Notes under the pieces: model-generated
What the model was told of the DNA's origin: nothing
What the model saw: only the letters and a program-made list of their open reading frames with translations
The model's database searches: none
Shown here: one piece after another, positions 40,477-49,960 of the stretch
Numbering within the stretch: position 1 is the stretch's first letter
How the letters are laid out: every line of letters begins with the position of its first letter
Position numbers and translations under genes: made by a program
Assembly: GCF_000092905.1 (NCBI RefSeq)
Contig: NC_014098.1
Span: 310,001 to 374,000, forward strand
DNA from: Kyrpidia tusciae DSM 2912
Lineage (GTDB): Bacteria; Bacillota; Bacilli; Kyrpidiales; Kyrpidiaceae
Direction: 5' to 3'
Length of the DNA stretch: 64,000 nt

Positions 40477-40982
40477 TTCTTTTCAGCCCAGCGTGCGTCC
40501 GGCGTCCAAAACAGTCGGGCCCTGACTTATCCCGAAACCCGACCCGCTTTGGATCAGCCGCTATCCGTCACGTCGGCCACACCCGCATTTCGATACCGCC
40601 TCCGCGGCGGAGGCAACCGCGCCGCCGGGCGGCCATCATCCCGCACGCGAGCGCGGGCGAAAGGTGGCAGACTGGCATCGTCACCTCCAGACCCGCGCGG
40701 CTCAGCACAGATCAAGCGAACACAAAAAGGCCTCCCGGTAACACGCTTCGTATTGCTCGGAAAATATTTCACCTGGGATGGACTTGGTGACGCAACGATT
40801 TGGACTTGCCGGCGAAATGGCGGTCTTTTTTAGGTTAATGCTGTTTGCAACAAGTTGTTGACCGGAGCCTATGCGTATGGTAGGTTAGAGATGTAAAACG
40901 TATGTTCGCAATATGCCGGCAGGAGAAGGGATGTTGGCTGGATTGGCAGGCCTTGATTATACTGAAGGTAGGCGGGGAGATC
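40477..40982. other. intergenic region upstream of the Rpn-type gene
   Basis: GC-rich DNA with a short palindrome (GCCTCCGCGGCGGAGGC, near 40599) and no convincing gene. A plausible promoter for the plus-strand gene is TTGACC (40860-40865), 17 bases, TAGGTT (40883-40888). Confidence 0.4.
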
Positions 40983-41852
40983 GTGGAGATATCACGGAAT
41001 TCAAACGATATTGTCGCGCGCCATTTGACTGTTGCCATGGCCCAGGGTGCGCTGGCGGCGATCGGCATCTCCGACGCTGTGGTGGTCGGAGCTTTGCCTG
41101 CGGATTTGCCGAGGGTGGAAGTGCGCGAAGACCGGATGGATATCCTGTTGGAACTGCAGGATGGCCGATTGATGCATCTCGAGTATCAGAAAAAGAAGGA
41201 GCCTAATCTCTACCGGTTTTTGCATTATGATGCCGCCATTGTCGAGAGATATCGCTGTAAGGTTCGCACCATTGTCGTCTATACCGATGAGGTGGCCAGT
41301 GCTCCAGAACAGTTGGATGCCGGAGCAATCTCTTATCGGGTAGAAAATTTGTATCTCAGCCGAATTGACGGCGACGCTACAATCGACACACTGCGCCAGC
41401 ATGTGTCAGTGGGTGAATGGACTGCGGTCGATCGGGTGAAAACAGCGTTTGCGTTTCATATGCGTTTCACCCGGAGAACGCCGGAACAGGCATTTGACGA
41501 GATCGTGGAAGTGATTCGTCGAATACCCGATCAAGAGGAGCAACGCTACGTTGCGGCCCTCATCCTCGGGTTCAGTGCCAAGGCTTTAACCGATCAACAG
41601 ATGAAAATTCTTCGGGAGGTGGCTGGGGTGGCCGACCTGCTTTACTCTGTTCAACGGGAAGCCATTGAAAAAGGTTGGAAAGAAGGTTTGCAGAAGGGAT
41701 TGCAAGAGGGTCTGCGACAGGGTCGCGAGGAAGAAAAACGTGACATTGCTAAGCGAATGTTACAACGGGGTGTATCCGTGTCGGTTGTCGCGGAATTCAC
41801 GGGTCTGACGGAGTCCGAGGTGAAACAGATTATGAGAAGCCTCGACCGATGA
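40983..41852 (+). CDS. Rpn-family (PD-(D/E)XK) recombination-promoting nuclease/putative transposase
   Basis: This 289-residue protein has a nuclease core in the first 100 residues: VEVREDRMDILLELQDGRLM and HLEYQKKKEPNLYRFLHYDA supply the Asp, the ExQ and the lysines of Rpn/PDDEXK_2 proteins. The C-terminal third holds a charged repeat (KGWKEGLQKGLQEGLRQGRE) and a small helix-turn-helix-like end (GVSVSVVAEFTGLTESEVKQI). The family promotes RecA-independent recombination or acts as mobile-linked nucleases (family knowledge). GTG 40983 is chosen, 5 bases after GGCGGGGAG; the longer frame to 40902 has no good start signal. It is unrelated in orientation to the redox operon. Confidence 0.85.
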   Translation: MEISRNSNDIVARHLTVAMAQGALAAIGISDAVVVGALPADLPRVEVREDRMDILLELQDGRLMHLEYQKKKEPNLYRFLHYDAAIVERYRCKVRTIVVYTDEVASAPEQLDAGAISYRVENLYLSRIDGDATIDTLRQHVSVGEWTAVDRVKTAFAFHMRFTRRTPEQAFDEIVEVIRRIPDQEEQRYVAALILGFSAKALTDQQMKILREVAGVADLLYSVQREAIEKGWKEGLQKGLQEGLRQGREEEKRDIAKRMLQRGVSVSVVAEFTGLTESEVKQIMRSLDR

Positions 41853-41927
41853 CCGGGATCGCGGCTGGAGCCGATGCCGTCTGGTGGCAAGTATCCTGGT
41901 GCGGGAATTACGGAAGGTGACAGGCGG

Positions 41928-43673
41928 ATGACGGAGCGGGAACTGTTAGATGTGTTGGACACGCCGATCTATTTCATCGACGCAAAGCACGTCGTGGTCT
42001 GGATGAACCGTGCCGCCCAAAATGCGGTTCCAGGGATTGTCAAGGGGATGCCGTGGACTGACGTACAGCCCCGCCTTCCGCGAACCCACATCTTTAGGTT
42101 CCACGAAGTGCAGGTCGGCGGAGAACCCGGTGTAATGGTGGAAGGGACGCCGAGTGCCGATCCGGCGCTTTTGTCCGAGTTGGAACGGCTGCGTCAGGCC
42201 AATGAGGATCTTGAAACTATCCTGGACACGTTGTTTGATGAAGTTTTCGTCACCGATGGAGAAGGGGTGGTCCTGAGGGTCAATACGGCGGCGGAGCAGT
42301 TGTACGGCCTACAAAATTCCGATATCGTTGGACGAACGGTGTTTGACCTTGAGCGGGAACAGGTGTTTTACCCGTCGGTGGCCGCCATGGTTCTTCAGCG
42401 GCGCAGACGCGTGACGGCGCTTCAAGAGACGAAAAACGGCCACCGGCTGGTGGTGACGGGTAGCCCGGTTTTCGATCGCGAAGGGCGGATCGTGCGGATC
42501 GTTTGTTACACCCGGGATCTGACCTCTACCCGGTCATGGCCCTCGGAGGCTGTTCAAGGAGTAGGGCAAGGCGTAGAAATACCCCGGGATTCGGGCCTGG
42601 TGGCGGAGAACCCCGCCATGAAGTCCGTCATGGATCTGATCCGGAGGGTGGCCCCCACCGATGCGACGATTTTGCTGCTCGGGGAAACCGGGGTGGGAAA
42701 GAACCGCCTAGCCCGCTTCATTCACGACCTCAGTTCCCGCCGGGCGAATCCCTTTGTGGAGATCAACTGCGCCAATGTCCCCGAATCCCTCTTCGAGAGT
42801 GAACTATTCGGCTATGAAAGCGGAGCCTTTACCGGTGCTCGGAAGGAAGGCAAGGTCGGCAAGGTCGAGTTGGCCCACGGGGGCACCTTATTCCTCAATG
42901 AGGTGGGGGAGCTGCCTCTTCACGTGCAGGGAAAGATTTTGGACCTCCTTCAGGAACGGACCGTTTCCCGGGTGGGCGGGGTGCACACCCGGAAGGTGGA
43001 TATCCGGATCGTGGCGGCGACAAACAAGGATCTCCGCCAATTGGTGAAAGAAGGGCGGTTCAGGGATGACTTATATTTCCGCCTGAACGTCGTCCCTTTA
43101 ACCATTCCCCCCCTTCGGGAGCGGGGGGAAGATATTTGTACCCTCGCGGAGACCCTGGTTCACCGCTTTTGTGACAAATATCAACTGCCGAGAAAAGCGA
43201 TTCATCCCGACGTCATGGCGTGTTTCCTACATTATGCCTGGCCCGGCAACGTCCGGGAACTGGAGAATGTGATCGAACGGCTGTGCATCATCGTGGAAGA
43301 TGACATCCTGCTTCCGGAACACCTGCCTGAAGAACTTTGGTCATCGAGGGGGACCGAGCGAGGAGAGAAGGACGGGTATCTCGGGACAAAGGGAACGCCG
43401 GACAACGGAGGCCCACCGCCCAAGACTGTCTTCAGCTCTTCGCTGCCGGGGAAGGCGGCTTTCCAGTCGCACTCTTCGCCAGATATTCTTTCCCACGGAT
43501 GGGGCATTCGCCAGGTGTTGGAAGAGGTGGAGCGGGAGCTGTATGCCCGGGCTTTACAACAATACGGAAGCACCTACGCCATCGCAAAACATCTTCGGGT
43601 GAGCCAACCCACGGTGGTGCGGAAGTTGAGACAGTTCGGCCTTTCGGGCGGGAGGGCATTGGATTCTCAATAA
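41928..43673 (+). CDS. sigma-54-dependent activator (PAS-AAA+-Fis, RocR/TyrR-like)
   Basis: This 581-residue enhancer-binding protein has three regions. Its N-terminal sensory part (about 1-215) contains PAS-like DGEGVVLRVNTAAEQLYGL. The AAA+ domain (about 220-460) has Walker A GETGVGKN (252-259) and the sigma-54 contact loop GAFTGA (299-304). Walker B is FLNEVGELP, and RLNVVPLTIPPLRERGEDI follows. A Fis-type HTH ends it (about 550-575; YAIAKHLRVSQPTVVRKLRQFG). Two deviations are visible: Asn324 replaces the usual Walker B Asp, and Walker A ends KN instead of KE. ATG 41928 is preceded by AAGGTG. Its likely targets are the two sigma-54 promoters at 46802 and 46994; PAS points to a small-molecule signal. 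Confidence 0.93.
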   Translation: MTERELLDVLDTPIYFIDAKHVVVWMNRAAQNAVPGIVKGMPWTDVQPRLPRTHIFRFHEVQVGGEPGVMVEGTPSADPALLSELERLRQANEDLETILDTLFDEVFVTDGEGVVLRVNTAAEQLYGLQNSDIVGRTVFDLEREQVFYPSVAAMVLQRRRRVTALQETKNGHRLVVTGSPVFDREGRIVRIVCYTRDLTSTRSWPSEAVQGVGQGVEIPRDSGLVAENPAMKSVMDLIRRVAPTDATILLLGETGVGKNRLARFIHDLSSRRANPFVEINCANVPESLFESELFGYESGAFTGARKEGKVGKVELAHGGTLFLNEVGELPLHVQGKILDLLQERTVSRVGGVHTRKVDIRIVAATNKDLRQLVKEGRFRDDLYFRLNVVPLTIPPLRERGEDICTLAETLVHRFCDKYQLPRKAIHPDVMACFLHYAWPGNVRELENVIERLCIIVEDDILLPEHLPEELWSSRGTERGEKDGYLGTKGTPDNGGPPPKTVFSSSLPGKAAFQSHSSPDILSHGWGIRQVLEEVERELYARALQQYGSTYAIAKHLRVSQPTVVRKLRQFGLSGGRALDSQ

Positions 43674-43771
43674 AGCTTTACACTTGGGACTCCGCCCAGG
43701 AACTGAAGGGTCACGATATGGAACCCAAGCGGAGGCTGTGACCAACGCCCCCGGGACGTGAAGCCGGGCCG

Positions 43772-43799
43772 GGCCGGTTATTCCGACTCCCGACCGGCC
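43772..43799. terminator. hairpin between convergent activator and 5-oxoprolinase operon
   Basis: GGCCGGT (43772-43778) pairs with ACCGGCC (43793-43799). It lies between the two convergent stops and has no T-run. Confidence 0.35.
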
Positions 43800-43817
43800 G
43801 TGCTGGCTTCCGGTTAT

Positions 43818-44078
43818 CTACTTGTCCTCTTTGGGAATCAGGACGGCGATCTCCTGACCGACGTCCACCATTGCTTCATTTTCCACGGAGAAAGCGGCAA
43901 TGATCCCGTCTTCTTCCGCCTGGATCTCATAGAAGTTCTTCATCACTTCCACCAGCCCGATGGTGTCTCCCGACTTCACCGTATCCCCTTCGCGGACGTA
44001 CACGTCCGACTGCGGGTTGGGCCGTCGATAGAATATACCGGGCAAGGGGGAAACGATGCTCTTGCGCGGTCCGGACAT
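43818..44078 (-). CDS. biotin carboxyl carrier-like protein
   Basis: This 86-residue stand-alone biotinyl/lipoyl domain has its attachment Lys47 in VEVMKNFYEIQAEEDG and the usual EGDTVKSGDTIGLVEVMK lead-in. The MKN (not MKM) triplet is the biotin-type variant seen in carriers linked to LamB/YcsF and KipI/KipA genes. It is the last gene of the pxpB-pxpC-pxpA operon, 45 bases after pxpA. No biotin carboxylase gene lies in this window, so its loading partner would be encoded elsewhere, or it serves PxpC, whose family name is biotin-dependent carboxyltransferase-like. The start is ATG 44078 after GGAGGTGTACC. Confidence 0.88.
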   Translation of the reverse strand: MSGPRKSIVSPLPGIFYRRPNPQSDVYVREGDTVKSGDTIGLVEVMKNFYEIQAEEDGIIAAFSVENEAMVDVGQEIAVLIPKEDK

Positions 44079-44123
44079 ACCGGTACACCTCCTTCAGGTT
44101 GCTGCGTTTGCTACGTCGTGTCC

Positions 44124-44888
44124 TCAGGCAGAGGCGCCTTCAAAAGGCCGAATTTCGACGCCGTGTTCCATGAGGTGCCGGCGGATCACCCGGGCCAACT
44201 CCGGGGCGCCGGGCGTGTCACCGTGAATACAAATGCTATCGACCCTAACCGGGATGTCCTCGCCTTCTGCCGTGGTCACCCGTTTCTCCCGAACAGCCCG
44301 CAGAACTCTTTCAGCCGCTTTAACGGGGTCCAGGGCTGTCTCCACCTTCCGGGTGAACAAGATTTTGCCGTCCTCCGCGTACTCCCGGTCGGCGTAAAAC
44401 TCCGCCGCCACCCGCTGGCCCATCTCGTTGGCCACGCGATAGGTGGCGGAGGCCTCCATGCAGTACAGGATGAGGGACGAATCGACCCGCTGAATGGCAT
44501 CGATCACTGCCCGACTGAGATCCTCGTCGTCTGCCATCATCATGTACAAGGCGCCGTGGGGCTTTACATGTTGGACTTTCAACCCGTAAAGAGAGGCGAA
44601 TTCCCGCAGGGCCCCCAGTTGGTAGATGATGTCGTCCTGAACCTCCTGGGGTGTGCAGCGCAGATACCGTCGGCCGAAGCCCACCAAGTCCGGGAATCCG
44701 GCGTGAATCCCCACGGCGACGCCGTGAGCTTTGGCCAATTCTACGGTCCGGCGCATCACGTGAGGGTCTCCGGCGTGAAAGCCGCCCGCCACATTCGCCG
44801 AGGAGATGTACTTCATCATTTCCTCGTCCCGTCCCATGGTCCAGGCCCCAAAGCTTTCTCCCATATCGCAGTTCAGGTCCACCTGCAC
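44124..44888 (-). CDS. pxpA: 5-oxoprolinase subunit A (LamB/YcsF family)
   Basis: This 254-residue protein begins [14 protein letters not shown], the defining LamB/YcsF signature, followed by [43 protein letters not shown] and [13 protein letters not shown]. With PxpB and PxpC it hydrolyses 5-oxoproline (pyroglutamate) to glutamate using ATP. ATG 44888 is the third cistron; PxpC ends 19 bases upstream. The set is transcribed from a sigma-54 promoter at 46802-46818. Confidence 0.95.
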
Positions 44889-44906
44889 CGCATAGGCCCC
44901 CTTCTA

Positions 44907-45884
44907 TCAGCTTTGTCGCAAAAACGATTCCACTTCCAGAATCCTCGTCTGCCTCTCCCGGCGCCGGCGCAGGGCCTCGGCCAGATCGATTTCGACGAAT
45001 TTCGCTTTCTGGTTCGTCCGGGTCTGGGCGATGCGATCGAGATCCGCACTGATCACCGTGCCGATGGTGGCGTAGCCCCCTCCCGTCACGGCGTCGTTCA
45101 ACAGGACAATGGGCTCCACGCCGTCCGGGACCTGGATGGAACCGATGGGATACCCGCAGTCGACCACGTTCGACGGGTTGCTGCCGGCCCCGAAGGGCTG
45201 AGGACGATCCACGAATTGTAAACGGATTCCCTTGTATCGATAACCCACGCGGTTGGCCTCGGGGGTGACGGTCCACTCGGCGGCAAAAAACTCCTGTTTA
45301 CTCTCCTCGGTCAGCCGGTGTACGTACAGCCCCGGCACCACGTGGAGCTCCGCTGCCTCGGCAAAATTCGGACGCCATTTCGTGGGTAAGGCGACCCCTT
45401 CCCTGGGCGCTCGGGTTTGCAAGTCCCCCTTCTCGAGCATATCCCCGGCCTTCAAAGCCCGCCCCTCGTAGCCGCCGATGCCGCACAGGGCGTAGGTGGA
45501 ACGGCTGCCCATGACCGGCGGGACTCCAATGCCTCCTTCCACGGCGATGTAGCTGCGGGCTCCTTTTTGCAGCATGCCAAAGGACAGCACGTCCCCGGAC
45601 CGGGCAGCCACCGCCGTCCAGAGAGGGATGGGTTGTCCATTGAGAAAAGCGGGCATGTCGGCTCCGCACACGGCAAATCGAACATTTGCCCGGAATTCCA
45701 GTTCCGGGCCGAGATAAGTCGCCTCCAGGGTCGCCGCGGACGGATCGTTTCCCACCAGCAGATTGGCCACGGTGTGAGAATATTTGTCAAGAGCCCCGGA
45801 AGGTGGGAGGCCAATGCTGTAGTATCCGGGTCTCCCCAAATCCTGCACCGTTGTTGACAGCCCTGGCTTGATCACGCGGATCAT
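44907..45884 (-). CDS. pxpC: 5-oxoprolinase subunit C (KipA/AHS2, biotin-dependent carboxyltransferase-like)
   Basis: This 325-residue protein begins MIRVIKPGLSTTVQDLGRPG, the KipA/AHS2 entry motif, with GLPPSGALDKYSHTVANLLVGN. It also has FAVCGADMPAFLNGQP, GSRSTYALCGIGGYEGRAL and VIVLLNDAVTGGG-like TIGTVISADLDRIAQ elements. It is the PxpB partner. Its start overlaps the pxpB stop by four bases (ATGA), indicating coupled translation. The full length is kept. It lies in the middle of the minus-strand operon. Confidence 0.94.
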   Translation of the reverse strand: MIRVIKPGLSTTVQDLGRPGYYSIGLPPSGALDKYSHTVANLLVGNDPSAATLEATYLGPELEFRANVRFAVCGADMPAFLNGQPIPLWTAVAARSGDVLSFGMLQKGARSYIAVEGGIGVPPVMGSRSTYALCGIGGYEGRALKAGDMLEKGDLQTRAPREGVALPTKWRPNFAEAAELHVVPGLYVHRLTEESKQEFFAAEWTVTPEANRVGYRYKGIRLQFVDRPQPFGAGSNPSNVVDCGYPIGSIQVPDGVEPIVLLNDAVTGGGYATIGTVISADLDRIAQTRTNQKAKFVEIDLAEALRRRRERQTRILEVESFLRQS

Positions 45885-46762
45885 CGCTCCAGCTCTCCTT
45901 TCACGGCCGCGGAGAATCCGGCGGGATCCCGGATGGCGTCGCCCGGGTTAAAGGTGATCTCCCGTATCCGGTATCGGAACGTCCCGTTGTCCACGGTGGC
46001 TCGAATGGCCTCGTACTCCTTCATGTCGATGGGCCGGAACCAGTAAATGTCTCCCGGCCGGGGAAAGACCATGGACTCCCGAAAATCCGGCAGGCGCTGG
46101 TCCCGGTCAAAAATCGGACTTGGGGAGATGCCGAACAATTGATATCCTCCCGCCCCGTCCACCGGGTAGATGGCCACAAAAGCGCCTCCGAATCCAAACG
46201 CCCGGGCCGGAGTATACGTGCGGGGCCGCACGTATTTGGGCACTTCGATCTGCTCCTCCCGGGGTGCGATCTGGAAGCACCAGGGCAGGCCCGGCACAAA
46301 CCCCGTCATAGACACAATGTACGGTGCCCGACACAGAGCTTCGATAAAAGCTTCTGTCGAAGAAAACCCATTGATGCGCGCCGCGTATTCCAAATCTGTC
46401 GAGTTCGGGTCCTGGTGGCGATCCCGGGCCCGCATCAACGCCTCCCGGGTCCAGGGGTCATCGAAGAGGATCGGAAAATCCACCACCCGGGACGTGAGAG
46501 ATACGCGGGCCAAATCGGTGGTGGACCGGTCTGTCGCCTCAAGGTGCCGCAACAAATCCTCGGGGGAGATCACGTCGGGATCGTACCGGACCATGTAAGA
46601 CGCATTGGCCGGGCAGATGTCCAAGACTCCCCGAATATGATGCTCTTGCAGCTCCCGGGTGATGGCCATCACTCGGATGTTCGCTTCCAGGCTCATTTCC
46701 TCGGAGAGTTCGACGAAAATAAATTCATCGCCGCCATAGGTATAACGTGGGGTCGAATGTAT
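45881..46762 (-). CDS. pxpB: 5-oxoprolinase subunit B (KipI/AHS1), irregular start
   Basis: This KipI-like protein has NIRVMAITRELQEHHIRG, SYMVRYDPDVISPEDL, SMTGFVPGLPWC, VPKYVRPRTYTPARA and VAIYPVDGAGGYQLFG. The first ordinary start, ATG 46696, would begin after the first beta strand. In-frame sequence upstream still encodes the expected TYGGDEFIFVELSEEMSLE. In that frame no ATG/GTG/TTG exists before a stop at 46766. The codon best placed after GGAGG (8 bases) is ATA 46762, a very rare start. An ATG at 46769 is in another frame and one base from the ribosome site; one extra G/C in the four-base run 46749-46752 would explain the difference. A frameshift or a non-canonical start is therefore likely. 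Confidence 0.85.
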   Translation of the reverse strand: MHSTPRYTYGGDEFIFVELSEEMSLEANIRVMAITRELQEHHIRGVLDICPANASYMVRYDPDVISPEDLLRHLEATDRSTTDLARVSLTSRVVDFPILFDDPWTREALMRARDRHQDPNSTDLEYAARINGFSSTEAFIEALCRAPYIVSMTGFVPGLPWCFQIAPREEQIEVPKYVRPRTYTPARAFGFGGAFVAIYPVDGAGGYQLFGISPSPIFDRDQRLPDFRESMVFPRPGDIYWFRPIDMKEYEAIRATVDNGTFRYRIREITFNPGDAIRDPAGFSAAVKGELER

Positions 46763-46801
46763 GAGTCATCCCTCCTTCAACTGAGCGATCAAAGAAATCC
46801 C

Positions 46802-46818
46802 GTGCAAAATATATGCCA
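46802..46818 (-). promoter_or_regulatory. sigma-54 promoter of the pxpB-pxpC-pxpA operon
   Basis: The minus strand reads TGGCAT-ATATT-TTGCAC, matching the TGGCAC-N5-TTGCA consensus with correct GG/GC spacing. The start of transcription would be near 46790, about 15 bases before the pxpB ribosome site. Confidence 0.85.
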
Positions 46819-46901
46819 TCTTTGCTTATCCTATCCGGAGAACGCCCGGGCCAGGCTGTGCAGGTGGTCGTCCTCTTTCCGGGGCTTGTCGTTGAGCGGA
46901 T

Positions 46902-46923
46902 TTTGATTCATGCACGAATCAAA
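46902..46923. promoter_or_regulatory. central enhancer palindrome between divergent sigma-54 promoters
   Basis: TTTGATTC-ATGCAC-GAATCAAA has perfect 8-base arms around a 6-base spacer. It lies 70 bases upstream of the gabT -24 box and 83 bases upstream of the pxpB -24 box. A weaker related half-site (GTGCACATATGAATT) follows at about 46936-46950. It is placed as the binding site of a Fis-type activator such as the one at 41928. Confidence 0.75.
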
Positions 46924-46993
46924 CGGAATCCGATCGTGCACATATGAATTGCTCATCCCGGAAACATCGGCCATTCCGGGCTCTCCCCCGCCT

Positions 46994-47009
46994 TGGCATT
47001 CATTTTGCA
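46994..47009 (+). promoter_or_regulatory. sigma-54 promoter of the gabT-gabD operon
   Basis: TGGCAT-TCATT-TTGCA (46994-47009) matches the -24/-12 consensus with GG and GC ten bases apart. Transcription would start near 47020, about 75 bases before the aminotransferase start. Confidence 0.85.
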
Positions 47010-47096: not shown

Positions 47097-48458
47097 TTGA
47101 CGCGTCGATTCATTGATTTAAAAACGCCGATCCCGGGCCCAAAGTCTCAGGCGTTGATGGAACGCCGGAAGGCTCGGGTGCCCAGGGGCGTGAGCAACGC
47201 CACACCGATTTTTGTCGATCGGGCGGAAGGCGCCTTGGTGACCGATGTGGACGGAAACACGTTTTTGGATTTTGCAGGAGCGATCGGAACGATGAACGCG
47301 GGTCACCGGCCCCCGGCGGTGGTCAAGGCCCTGCATGAGCAAGTGGACCGGTTTCTGCACACCAGTTTCCACGTGGCCATGTACGAGTCCTACGTGGCCT
47401 TGGCGGAAAAACTGGCGGAATTGACCCCCGGAAACTTTGAAAAGAAGGCAATGTTTCTCAACTCCGGGGCTGAGGCGGTGGAGAATGCGATCAAAATCGC
47501 CCGGCGATACACCGGGCGGCCGGCGGTGGTGTCCTTTACCCGGGGTTTCCACGGCCGGACGTTGATGGGCATGTCCCTCACCAGCAAGGTCAAACCCTAC
47601 AAGTACCAGATGGGACCCTTTGCGCCGATGGTTTACCAGGCACCGTACCCCTACGTGTACCGCAGGCCGGCGGGGATGAGTGAGGAGGAATACACCGATT
47701 CGGTGATCGCCCAGTTCAAAGAATTTTTCTCCGCCGAAGTCTCACCCGAAGAGGTGGCCGCCGTGATTTTTGAGCCCGTTCAGGGGGAGGGCGGCTTCAT
47801 CGTTCCGCCGAAGCGGTTCGTCGATGCGGTGAAGGAGTTCTGCGCCCAGCATCGAATTGTTTTTATTGCGGATGAAATCCAGACCGGCTTTGGGCGCACC
47901 GGGCGGTGGTTTGCCTCGGAGCATTTCGGGTTGGAGCCCGATCTGATCACCGTGTCGAAGTCTTTAGCCGCCGGGCTGCCCATCAGTGGGGTGGTTGGCA
48001 GGGCGGAGATTATGGACGCCGCGGAACCCGGTCAACTCGGGGGGACGTACGGGGGCAGTCCGCTGGGCTGCGCGGCCGCCCTCGGGGTGATTGAAACGAT
48101 GCAACGGGAAAACCTGGTGCAGAAAGCGGAGGTCCTCGGCCGGCAATTGATAGATCGGTTCACCCGGTGGTACGAGCGTTACCCATTGATCGGGGACGTG
48201 CGGGGCCTCGGCGCCATGGCAGCGGTGGAGTTGGTGAGGGATCGCCAGACGAGGGAGCCGGCCAAGGACGAGACGGCCCGGGTGATCCAGGGATCCGTTC
48301 AGCGGGGCGTGTTGTTGATGGGCGCAGGGCTGTACAGTGACGTGATTCGGATTTTGTGCCCCTTGGTGACCACGCCGGAAGAGCTGGACGAAGGGCTCGA
48401 TGTCGTGGAAGAAGCCTTGGCCGAAGTGAGTGGCGCGGTTTCGACTCAACAAGCTTGA
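47097..48458 (+). CDS. gabT: 4-aminobutyrate-type aminotransferase (class III)
   Basis: This 453-residue PLP enzyme has GVSNATPIFVDRAEGALVTD at its N-terminus, LNSGAEAVENAIKIARR for the phosphate, FTRGFHGRTLMGMSLTSK, FEPVQGEGGFIVPP and ADEIQTGFGRTG. The Schiff-base lysine is in TVSKSLAAGLPISGV, and GGTYGGSPLGCAAAL is present. This is the GabT/omega-aminotransferase pattern. It transfers the amino group of GABA or a related omega-amino acid to 2-oxoglutarate. The start is TTG 47097, 9 bases after GGGAG; no better start is in frame. It is driven by the sigma-54 promoter at 46994 and followed after 53 bases by the semialdehyde dehydrogenase gene. Confidence 0.93.
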   Translation: MTRRFIDLKTPIPGPKSQALMERRKARVPRGVSNATPIFVDRAEGALVTDVDGNTFLDFAGAIGTMNAGHRPPAVVKALHEQVDRFLHTSFHVAMYESYVALAEKLAELTPGNFEKKAMFLNSGAEAVENAIKIARRYTGRPAVVSFTRGFHGRTLMGMSLTSKVKPYKYQMGPFAPMVYQAPYPYVYRRPAGMSEEEYTDSVIAQFKEFFSAEVSPEEVAAVIFEPVQGEGGFIVPPKRFVDAVKEFCAQHRIVFIADEIQTGFGRTGRWFASEHFGLEPDLITVSKSLAAGLPISGVVGRAEIMDAAEPGQLGGTYGGSPLGCAAALGVIETMQRENLVQKAEVLGRQLIDRFTRWYERYPLIGDVRGLGAMAAVELVRDRQTREPAKDETARVIQGSVQRGVLLMGAGLYSDVIRILCPLVTTPEELDEGLDVVEEALAEVSGAVSTQQA

Positions 48459-48511: not shown

Positions 48512-49960
48512 ATGCGGCGATACGGATTGTATGTCGATGGGCAGTGGACCCCGGCAGGCAGCGGGAAAACGTTTGAGGTCTACAACCCGGCCACCGGGGA
48601 CGTGGTGGGGGAAGTGGCGGATGCGTCGAAAGAGGATGTCCTTCGGGCCGTGGATGCGGCTCATCGCGCCTTTCCCGATTGGGCGGCGAAGACGGCGAAG
48701 GAGCGCTCGGAGATTCTCCGGCGGGCTTACGATTTGATGGTGGCCAATCTCGACGAGCTGGCGGTCATCATGACCACCGAGCAGGGCAAGCCCTTGGCCG
48801 AAGCCAAGGGAGAGATTCAGTACGCAGCCGATTTTGTCTTGTGGTATTCCGAGGAAGCGAAACGGGTGTACGGCGAAACGATCCCGGCTTCGTTTCCCCA
48901 CAAACGGATCCTGGTCCTGCGCCAACCGGTGGGCGTGGTGGCGGCCATCACGCCGTGGAATTTTCCCGCAGCCATGATCACCCGAAAGATCGCTCCCGCC
49001 TTGGCGGCGGGCTGCACGGTAATCGTCAAACCGGCCAAACAGACGCCGCTCACCGCCTGCCGGCTGGTGGAGATTTTCGAAGAAGCGGGGATGCCTCCGG
49101 GGGTGGTGAACCTGATTACGGGAAGCCGGGCCGCGGAGATCGCCGATACGATGCTCGCCGACGAGCGGGTTCGGAAGATCACCTTCACCGGCTCCACCGA
49201 AGTGGGCAAGCAACTGATGCGCAAAGCGGCGGACACGGTGAAACACATCAGCCTGGAACTCGGAGGACACGCGCCATTCCTGGTCTTTGAAGACGCGGAC
49301 ATTGATGCGGCGGCCCGGGAGGTGGCGGCGAGCAAATTCCGCAATGCCGGCCAGACCTGTGTGTGCACGAACCGGGTGTACGTCCACGAGTCCATCGCCG
49401 AGCCCTTTGCCGCAGCCCTGGCCAAACGAGCGGCGGAGATGAAAGTCGGCAACGGCCTGGAAGAAGGAGTGGTCATCGGGCCTCTCATCGACCGCCAGGC
49501 TGCGGAAAAAGTCGAGGAGCACGTTCGAGATGCGGTCCAGAAGGGGGCCCGGGTGGTGACGGGCGGCCATCGGTTGAGCCGGACCGGCACCAAAGGGGAA
49601 GTGCACTTTTTCGAGCCCACGGTTCTGCTCGACGTCAGTGACGACATGCTGGTTCTCTACGAGGAAACCTTCGGTCCCGTCGCCCCGGTGCAGACCTTCC
49701 GGGATGACGAGGAAGCGGTCCGGAAAGCTAACGACACCCGCTATGGGCTGGCAGCTTACCTGTTCACCCGGGATCTGTCCCGGGCCGTGCGGGTGGCCGA
49801 GAGCCTGGAGTACGGGATTGTCGGCATCAACGATGGTCTGCCTTCCGTCGCCCAAGCTCCTTTTGGCGGTTTCAAGGAGAGCGGCTTGGGCCGGGAGGGC
49901 GGCCGCCACGGGATCGAGGAGTTCCTGGAGATCAAGTACGTGTCCCTGGCGCTCGTCTGA
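48512..49960 (+). CDS. gabD: succinate-semialdehyde dehydrogenase-type ALDH
   Basis: This 482-residue aldehyde dehydrogenase shows PWNFPAAMITRKIAPALAAG and the FTGSTEVGK nucleotide motif. The general base Glu is in LELGGHAPFLVF and the nucleophile Cys in NAGQTCVCTNRVYV; EETFGPVAP and PFGGFKESGLGREGG complete it. The CVC after the nucleophile is shared with succinate-semialdehyde dehydrogenases. With the preceding aminotransferase it would convert GABA to succinate through succinic semialdehyde. ATG 48512 follows AGGAGGTG by 7 bases; the longer frame lies in gabT. Confidence 0.93.
   Translation: MRRYGLYVDGQWTPAGSGKTFEVYNPATGDVVGEVADASKEDVLRAVDAAHRAFPDWAAKTAKERSEILRRAYDLMVANLDELAVIMTTEQGKPLAEAKGEIQYAADFVLWYSEEAKRVYGETIPASFPHKRILVLRQPVGVVAAITPWNFPAAMITRKIAPALAAGCTVIVKPAKQTPLTACRLVEIFEEAGMPPGVVNLITGSRAAEIADTMLADERVRKITFTGSTEVGKQLMRKAADTVKHISLELGGHAPFLVFEDADIDAAAREVAASKFRNAGQTCVCTNRVYVHESIAEPFAAALAKRAAEMKVGNGLEEGVVIGPLIDRQAAEKVEEHVRDAVQKGARVVTGGHRLSRTGTKGEVHFFEPTVLLDVSDDMLVLYEETFGPVAPVQTFRDDEEAVRKANDTRYGLAAYLFTRDLSRAVRVAESLEYGIVGINDGLPSVAQAPFGGFKESGLGREGGRHGIEEFLEIKYVSLALV

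Follow-up and report, generated by a model that had tools for sequence, protein, structure and literature searches.

The comparisons described here make it probable, taking the regulatory explanation as a whole, that the 208-bp gap between a minus-strand pxp-like operon and the plus-strand gabT and gabD genes of the soil bacterium Kyrpidia tusciae DSM 2912 (Bacilli) is a bidirectional sigma-54 control region, in which one activator acting at one central site would co-activate both operons. The architecture of the region and the pairing of the activator with its site are well supported by comparison between genomes; from these we infer binding, looping and co-induction. The features that enter the argument are listed below in coordinates of the window, that is, the whole 64,000-nt stretch of DNA that was analyzed.

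41928..43673, plus strand: sigma-54 enhancer-binding protein, GabR/PrdR-like, with the order PAS, AAA+, HTH_50
43818..44078, minus strand: biotin carboxyl carrier protein-like, 86 aa; NF005457 103.4 bits (cut-off 87), Pfam Biotin_lipoyl 56 bits
44124..44888, minus strand: pxpA-like (LamB/YcsF); NF003814 344 bits (cut-off 226), Pfam LamB_YcsF 323 bits
44907..45884, minus strand: pxpC-like (CT_A_B); TIGR00724 287 bits, over the cut-off
45881..46762, minus strand: pxpB-like (CT_C_D); CT_C_D 132 bits over the open frame
46803..46818, minus strand: predicted sigma-54 promoter (-24/-12) of the pxp-like operon, TGGCATATATTTTGCA; exact consensus
46902..46923, no strand: candidate enhancer palindrome, TTTGATTC-ATGCAC-GAATCAAA; proposed activator site for both promoters
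46994..47009, plus strand: predicted sigma-54 promoter (-24/-12) of gabT-gabD, TGGCATTCATTTTGCA; exact consensus
47097..48458, plus strand: gabT, 4-aminobutyrate--2-oxoglutarate transaminase, TTG start; NF005376 705 bits (cut-off 676), TIGR00700 614 bits, over the cut-off
48512..49960, plus strand: gabD, succinate-semialdehyde dehydrogenase; TIGR01780 673 bits (cut-off 646)

Outward-Facing Sigma-54 Promoters and the Central Palindrome

The minus-strand -24/-12 site, TGGCAT-ATATT-TTGCA, runs from 46818 to 46803 and its plus-strand counterpart, TGGCAT-TCATT-TTGCA, from 46994 to 47009; both possess the GG-N10-GC geometry of sigma-54 promoters. The preliminary description had presented them as two near-consensus divergent promoters of the form TGGCAT-N5-TTGCA; its coordinates were right, and both sites proved to be exact. 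When the window was searched for exact matches to TGGCAY-N5-TTGCA, only two were returned, and these are the two promoters in question. Genome-wide (3.38 Mb), the pattern TGGCAY-N5-TTGCW occurs 21 times and a reversed control pattern seven times, so that an outward-facing pair within 210 bp is unexpected by chance. The genome, a single contig of 3,384,766 bp, carries one copy of rpoN (223 bits). An alternative sigma-70-type promoter was dropped from consideration, since a simple scan of the pxpB-gabT gap gave none.

Between the two promoters lies a perfect 8+6+8 palindrome (46902-46923), which is separated from the -24 boxes by 83 bases on the minus side and 70 bases on the plus side; its position, symmetry and distances are as originally claimed. 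Measured from the core of the palindrome, GATTC-N6-GAATC, the sigma-54 box is 73 bp away on the gabT side and 86 bp away on the minus side. The palindrome is single-copy in the genome. Every other near-match has three mismatches, and these near-matches are located away from other sigma-54 promoters, with the exception of one that overlaps a promoter itself. By our estimate, the chance of finding a perfect 8-bp inverted repeat in approximately 330 bp is about 0.06 if any spacer of 0-12 is allowed; taken alone, such a repeat is therefore only mildly surprising. The palindrome owes its weight to its conservation and to the recurrence of its motif in orthologous promoters.

Among 40 relatives, one sister species (G001; 94% DNA identity) matched the region in full and three others matched the start of pxpB only; hence, the divergent layout is known from two close species only. 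The sister species retains the palindrome and both -24/-12 promoters, the elements whose conservation the preliminary description had proposed to look for. Its palindrome is longer (9+6+9), its gabT-side promoter is identical and its pxp-side promoter contains one change, in the free spacer. Overall, 1 of 54 positions differs within the three elements compared with 25 of 248 in the remaining gap (Fisher p = 0.034), and besides this one change a single base is inserted at the edge of the palindrome. At the sequence level, a conserved activator-type site is thus present between opposed sigma-54 promoters in two species, as would be expected of a shared enhancer. The idea that a single enhancer may serve the two divergent promoters gains support through this comparison.

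The Candidate Activator and Its Proposed Site

The protein encoded at 41928 contains the Pfam domains Sigma54_activat (PF00158; 227 bits), AAA_lid_14 (PF25601), PAS and HTH_50 (PF18024); an AAA+ domain with its lid, followed by a C-terminal HTH, places it among the enhancer-binding proteins. Its best NCBIfam match is PrdR (NF041552) at 375 bits, far under the equivalog cut-off of 795. The start at 41928 agrees with the orthologs better than a start at 41874. Just upstream of the gene, positions 40902-41852 encode a Rpn/transposase-type protein (TIGR01784, below the cut-off). The genome encodes 17 strong enhancer-binding proteins, namely this activator and 16 others, and the activator gene does not adjoin the palindrome here. 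Its nearest full-length relatives, with 41-49% identity in BLAST alignments, occur mostly in genomes of one related family, here designated f7, and are mostly located beside gabT, usually in divergent orientation and mostly with a sigma-54 site preceding gabT. This position beside gabT, together with the sigma-54 promoter in related genomes, is what characterizes a GabR-like regulator. The neighborhood of the orthologs and the recurrent site described below back the preliminary choice of this protein as the candidate activator.

The motif GATTC-N6-GAATC, with up to two mismatches, was found in 11 of the 13 gabT promoters adjacent to f7 orthologs, with the qualification that the 13 regions are not independent (six are from one genus) and that the 5-bp core was picked after the promoters had been viewed, the arms and their 6-base spacing being taken from the window. 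In dinucleotide shuffles of the same 13 regions, the motif was found in 1.97 regions on average and in 6 at most, and other spacers (2 to 10) gave 0 to 7 regions. Most of the orthologous sites match at two mismatches of 10; exact copies were present in two regions (L089 and L139) and in no shuffle. The distance from the end of the site to the downstream sigma-54 box is 75-85 bp in six regions, compared with 73 bp on the gabT side of the window. At two ortholog loci (G135 and G199) the motif is absent or diverged. A further instance was provided by the metagenome-assembled genome clean1249 (L152), in which an ortholog (49% identity) faces an operon with the order NCS1-like permease, pxpBCA, biotin carrier and accC. 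Here, GATTC-GATATC-AAATC is positioned 87 bp before the sigma-54 promoter of the operon, which compares with the spacing on the minus side of the window. This type of activator and site is therefore not confined to gabT but is also seen beside a pxp-like operon.

The clean1249 locus bears directly on the reading that the palindrome acts on the gabT promoter alone, and that the pxp-like promoter depends on a different site or on another of the 17 enhancer-binding proteins. Although most orthologs in f7 and their sites do accompany gabT alone, and pxp-like operons elsewhere in Bacilli have sigma-54 promoters of their own and other activators in the vicinity, the clean1249 ortholog itself faces a pxp-like operon that carries this kind of site, the 86 bp on the minus side of the window fits the same distance distribution, and the next sigma-54 activator gene is approximately 52 kb from the region. 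We consider this reading unlikely. Perfect short palindromes are typical of operators, and GABA genes in other bacteria use GntR/MocR-type regulators; however, no such gene was recognized among the proteins adjoining the region, and the motif accompanies the sigma-54 activator from genome to genome and holds its distance to the -24 box. We therefore consider it very improbable that the palindrome is the operator of a conventional repressor or activator (e.g., a GntR or MocR protein) that has nothing to do with sigma-54. The preferred reading is thus a single site shared by both promoters.

Promoters under the control of other activators (n = 7) gave a different result: AAGTC-N6-GACTT was present with up to two mismatches in four of the seven, three of these being exact, and GATTC-N6-GAATC was present at two mismatches in one. 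The recognition helix, SQPTVVRK, differs from the SQSSAMRK found in the activators of the AAGTC-N6-GACTT promoters. From this comparison, AAGTC-N6-GACTT putatively marks a second specificity among the activators of this pathway. It was also considered as the site of the activator at 41928 and rejected, having been found in 4 of 14 at two mismatches and in none at better. At three loci (L099, L132, and L109), AAGTC-N6-GACTT palindromes precede the promoter of gab operons that are accompanied by a different sigma-54 activator.

The Minus-Strand Operon and Its Relatives

The last gene of the pxp-like operon encodes the biotin carrier; it is unannotated, had been missed in the preliminary description and is intact in the sister species as well. 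It lies hidden beneath a spurious long plus-strand ORF (43758-45221). At the other end of the operon, the N-terminus of the PxpB-like protein is conserved with its homologs and reaches about position 46762, beyond the downstream ATG codon at 46696, and the conserved N-terminal sequence RYTYGGDEF has no in-frame ATG, GTG or TTG before it (46749-46769, minus strand). Two candidate starts were noted: an ATA codon at 46762-46760, eight bases after GGAGG, and an ORF that begins at the ATG at 46769 (MTHTFDP...) and would connect through a +1 frameshift on CCCC (46752-46749). The two genomes of the genus agree in these bases, which makes a sequencing error unlikely.

The PxpB-like protein scored 65.8 bits, below the TIGR00370 cut-off of 145.55, while the genome has a canonical PxpB (248.1 bits) at another locus (2893151-2893750; L150, at 2.893 Mb) together with a PxpC-like neighbor. 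The PxpC-like protein scored 231.9 bits against the NF045499 cut-off of 500, but the other PxpC of the genome also falls short at 265.1 bits, which renders this score uninformative. The urea carboxylase model is matched by the CT_A_B subunit as well as by the CT_C_D subunit; it is accordingly a reasonable guess, and no more, that the enzyme carboxylates a cyclic amide in a biotin-dependent step and then hydrolyzes the product. In most of the Bacilli relatives, accC, encoding biotin carboxylase, is located between pxpC and pxpA. Judged by its composition and model scores, the minus-strand operon is probably a diverged pxp paralog as opposed to a canonical 5-oxoprolinase, a name that fits it poorly.

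To place this operon in context, 80 loci with close PxpB relatives were surveyed. A gabT gene (at least 50% identity) was found within 9 kb in 11 of the 80, in Bacilli and in Rubrobacter-related actinobacteria, and in five further Bacilli loci the aminotransferase-dehydrogenase pair is more distant and has a sigma-54 site of its own. Two unrelated queries, included as controls in this locus search, gave no matches. The pxp and gab gene sets run in one direction at L095, L099, and L109. The recurrent linkage indicates that the pairing is old, and what is special in the window is the divergent layout with one central site. At approximately 21 Bacilli loci (within L153-L230), an exact sigma-54 promoter is located about 60-110 bp before a pxpBC-accC-pxpA operon, and an additional diverged pxpBC pair lies next to an activator gene in many loci of this set. 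In the proximal sigma-54 promoters of pxp-like operons of Bacillus relatives, neither GATTC-N6-GAATC nor AAGTC-N6-GACTT was clear, which implies that the activators differ there. The survey suggests that sigma-54 control of pxp-like operons may be widespread in Bacilli; our search of the literature found no description of such control for this operon.

A Possible Route from Lactams to GABA

The preliminary description had assigned the minus-strand operon to 5-oxoprolinase and to pyroglutamate/glutamate supply, and hence to a pathway from 5-oxoproline to glutamate joined to the GABA shunt. The operon does belong to the PxpABC superfamily, and its PxpA passes the subfamily cut-off. This proposal is nevertheless weakened by the sub-cut-off score of PxpB in a genome that encodes the canonical protein elsewhere, and by the biotin-carrier gene as part of the operon. 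Moreover, glutamate decarboxylase (TIGR01788) was not found, so that a conversion of 5-oxoproline to GABA via glutamate would lack that step. We regard the 5-oxoproline pathway as unlikely, and the assignment was not upheld.

With modest confidence, we infer that the co-induced operons probably form one pathway that leads from a lactam, such as 2-pyrrolidinone, to GABA, which is a better fit than pyroglutamate supply. A more specific version, which we offer tentatively as one possibility, is that pxpBCA and the biotin carrier constitute a urea-carboxylase-like enzyme that opens 2-pyrrolidinone (gamma-butyrolactam) to GABA and is co-induced with gabTD via the shared enhancer. The authors of a 2023 paper knew of no enzyme-based method for cleaving gamma-butyrolactam under mild conditions, and OplAB showed only trace activity on this compound (PMC11033972). 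A lactamase that resembles 5-oxoprolinases but has no activity as a 5-oxoprolinase has also been reported (PMC6061476). A described gene cluster for 2-pyrrolidinone was not found in our literature search.

The proposed mechanism would proceed as follows. The activator (41928-43673) would bind the palindrome (46902-46923) via its C-terminal HTH, and its PAS region would register a compound of the GABA pathway as the presumed inducer. The AAA+ ring would then assemble on the palindrome, and DNA looping would bring the activator to RNA polymerase-sigma-54 waiting at either of the flanking promoters, such that both gabTD and the pxpBCA-like operon, biotin carrier included, would be turned on together from one site. 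The ring-opening enzyme would supply GABA or a close omega-amino acid, which GabT and GabD would convert to succinate.

The region represents a compact and testable case of one bacterial enhancer with two flanking sigma-54 promoters, for which both an activator and its site can be predicted. In addition, the name "5-oxoprolinase" is probably wrong for a widespread operon that is tied to GABA genes in Bacilli and in Rubrobacter relatives; its products may convert lactams to GABA by ring opening, a reaction of industrial interest for which no good enzyme is known.

Comparison with Known Systems

The pxpABC 5-oxoprolinase of Bacillus subtilis and Corynebacterium glutamicum (PMC13274462) has homologous LamB/YcsF, CT_A_B and CT_C_D subunits; by comparison, the copy in the window is a diverged paralog, has a biotin carrier and is linked to gabTD. 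In Escherichia coli, the RpoN holoenzyme binds within the spacers of the divergent operons hycA/hypA and sgrR/sgrST, and at sgrR/sgrST both NtrC and RpoN are needed on the two sides (PMC8743547). The activators and genes differ from those of the window, and that work demonstrates no single central palindrome.

Two further parallels come from Bacillus thuringiensis, and they qualify the remark in the preliminary description that the arrangement was not known to be described: the divergent layout with one central site still stands as special, but the region as a whole is less unprecedented than had been thought. Control of gabT by sigma-54 and GabR is established in this species (PMC4279683). 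Both systems have a PAS-AAA+-HTH activator, a sigma-54 promoter for gabT (TGGCATACATTTGCA in B. thuringiensis), an upstream inverted repeat and GABA genes. The B. thuringiensis system, however, has one promoter, with no pxp-like operon described opposite, and the GabR repeat differs from that of the window in having 21-bp arms 5 bp apart; the likeness of the window activator to GabR is one of domains and gabT setting. In the case of B. thuringiensis SoxR, one site serves two opposed sigma-54 units (PMC4941409). That single activator site, an 11-bp inverted repeat, resembles the arrangement proposed for the window, with the difference that the soxC promoter lies beyond the soxR gene, at a distance of more than 1.7 kb, whereas the promoters in the window flank their site almost symmetrically.
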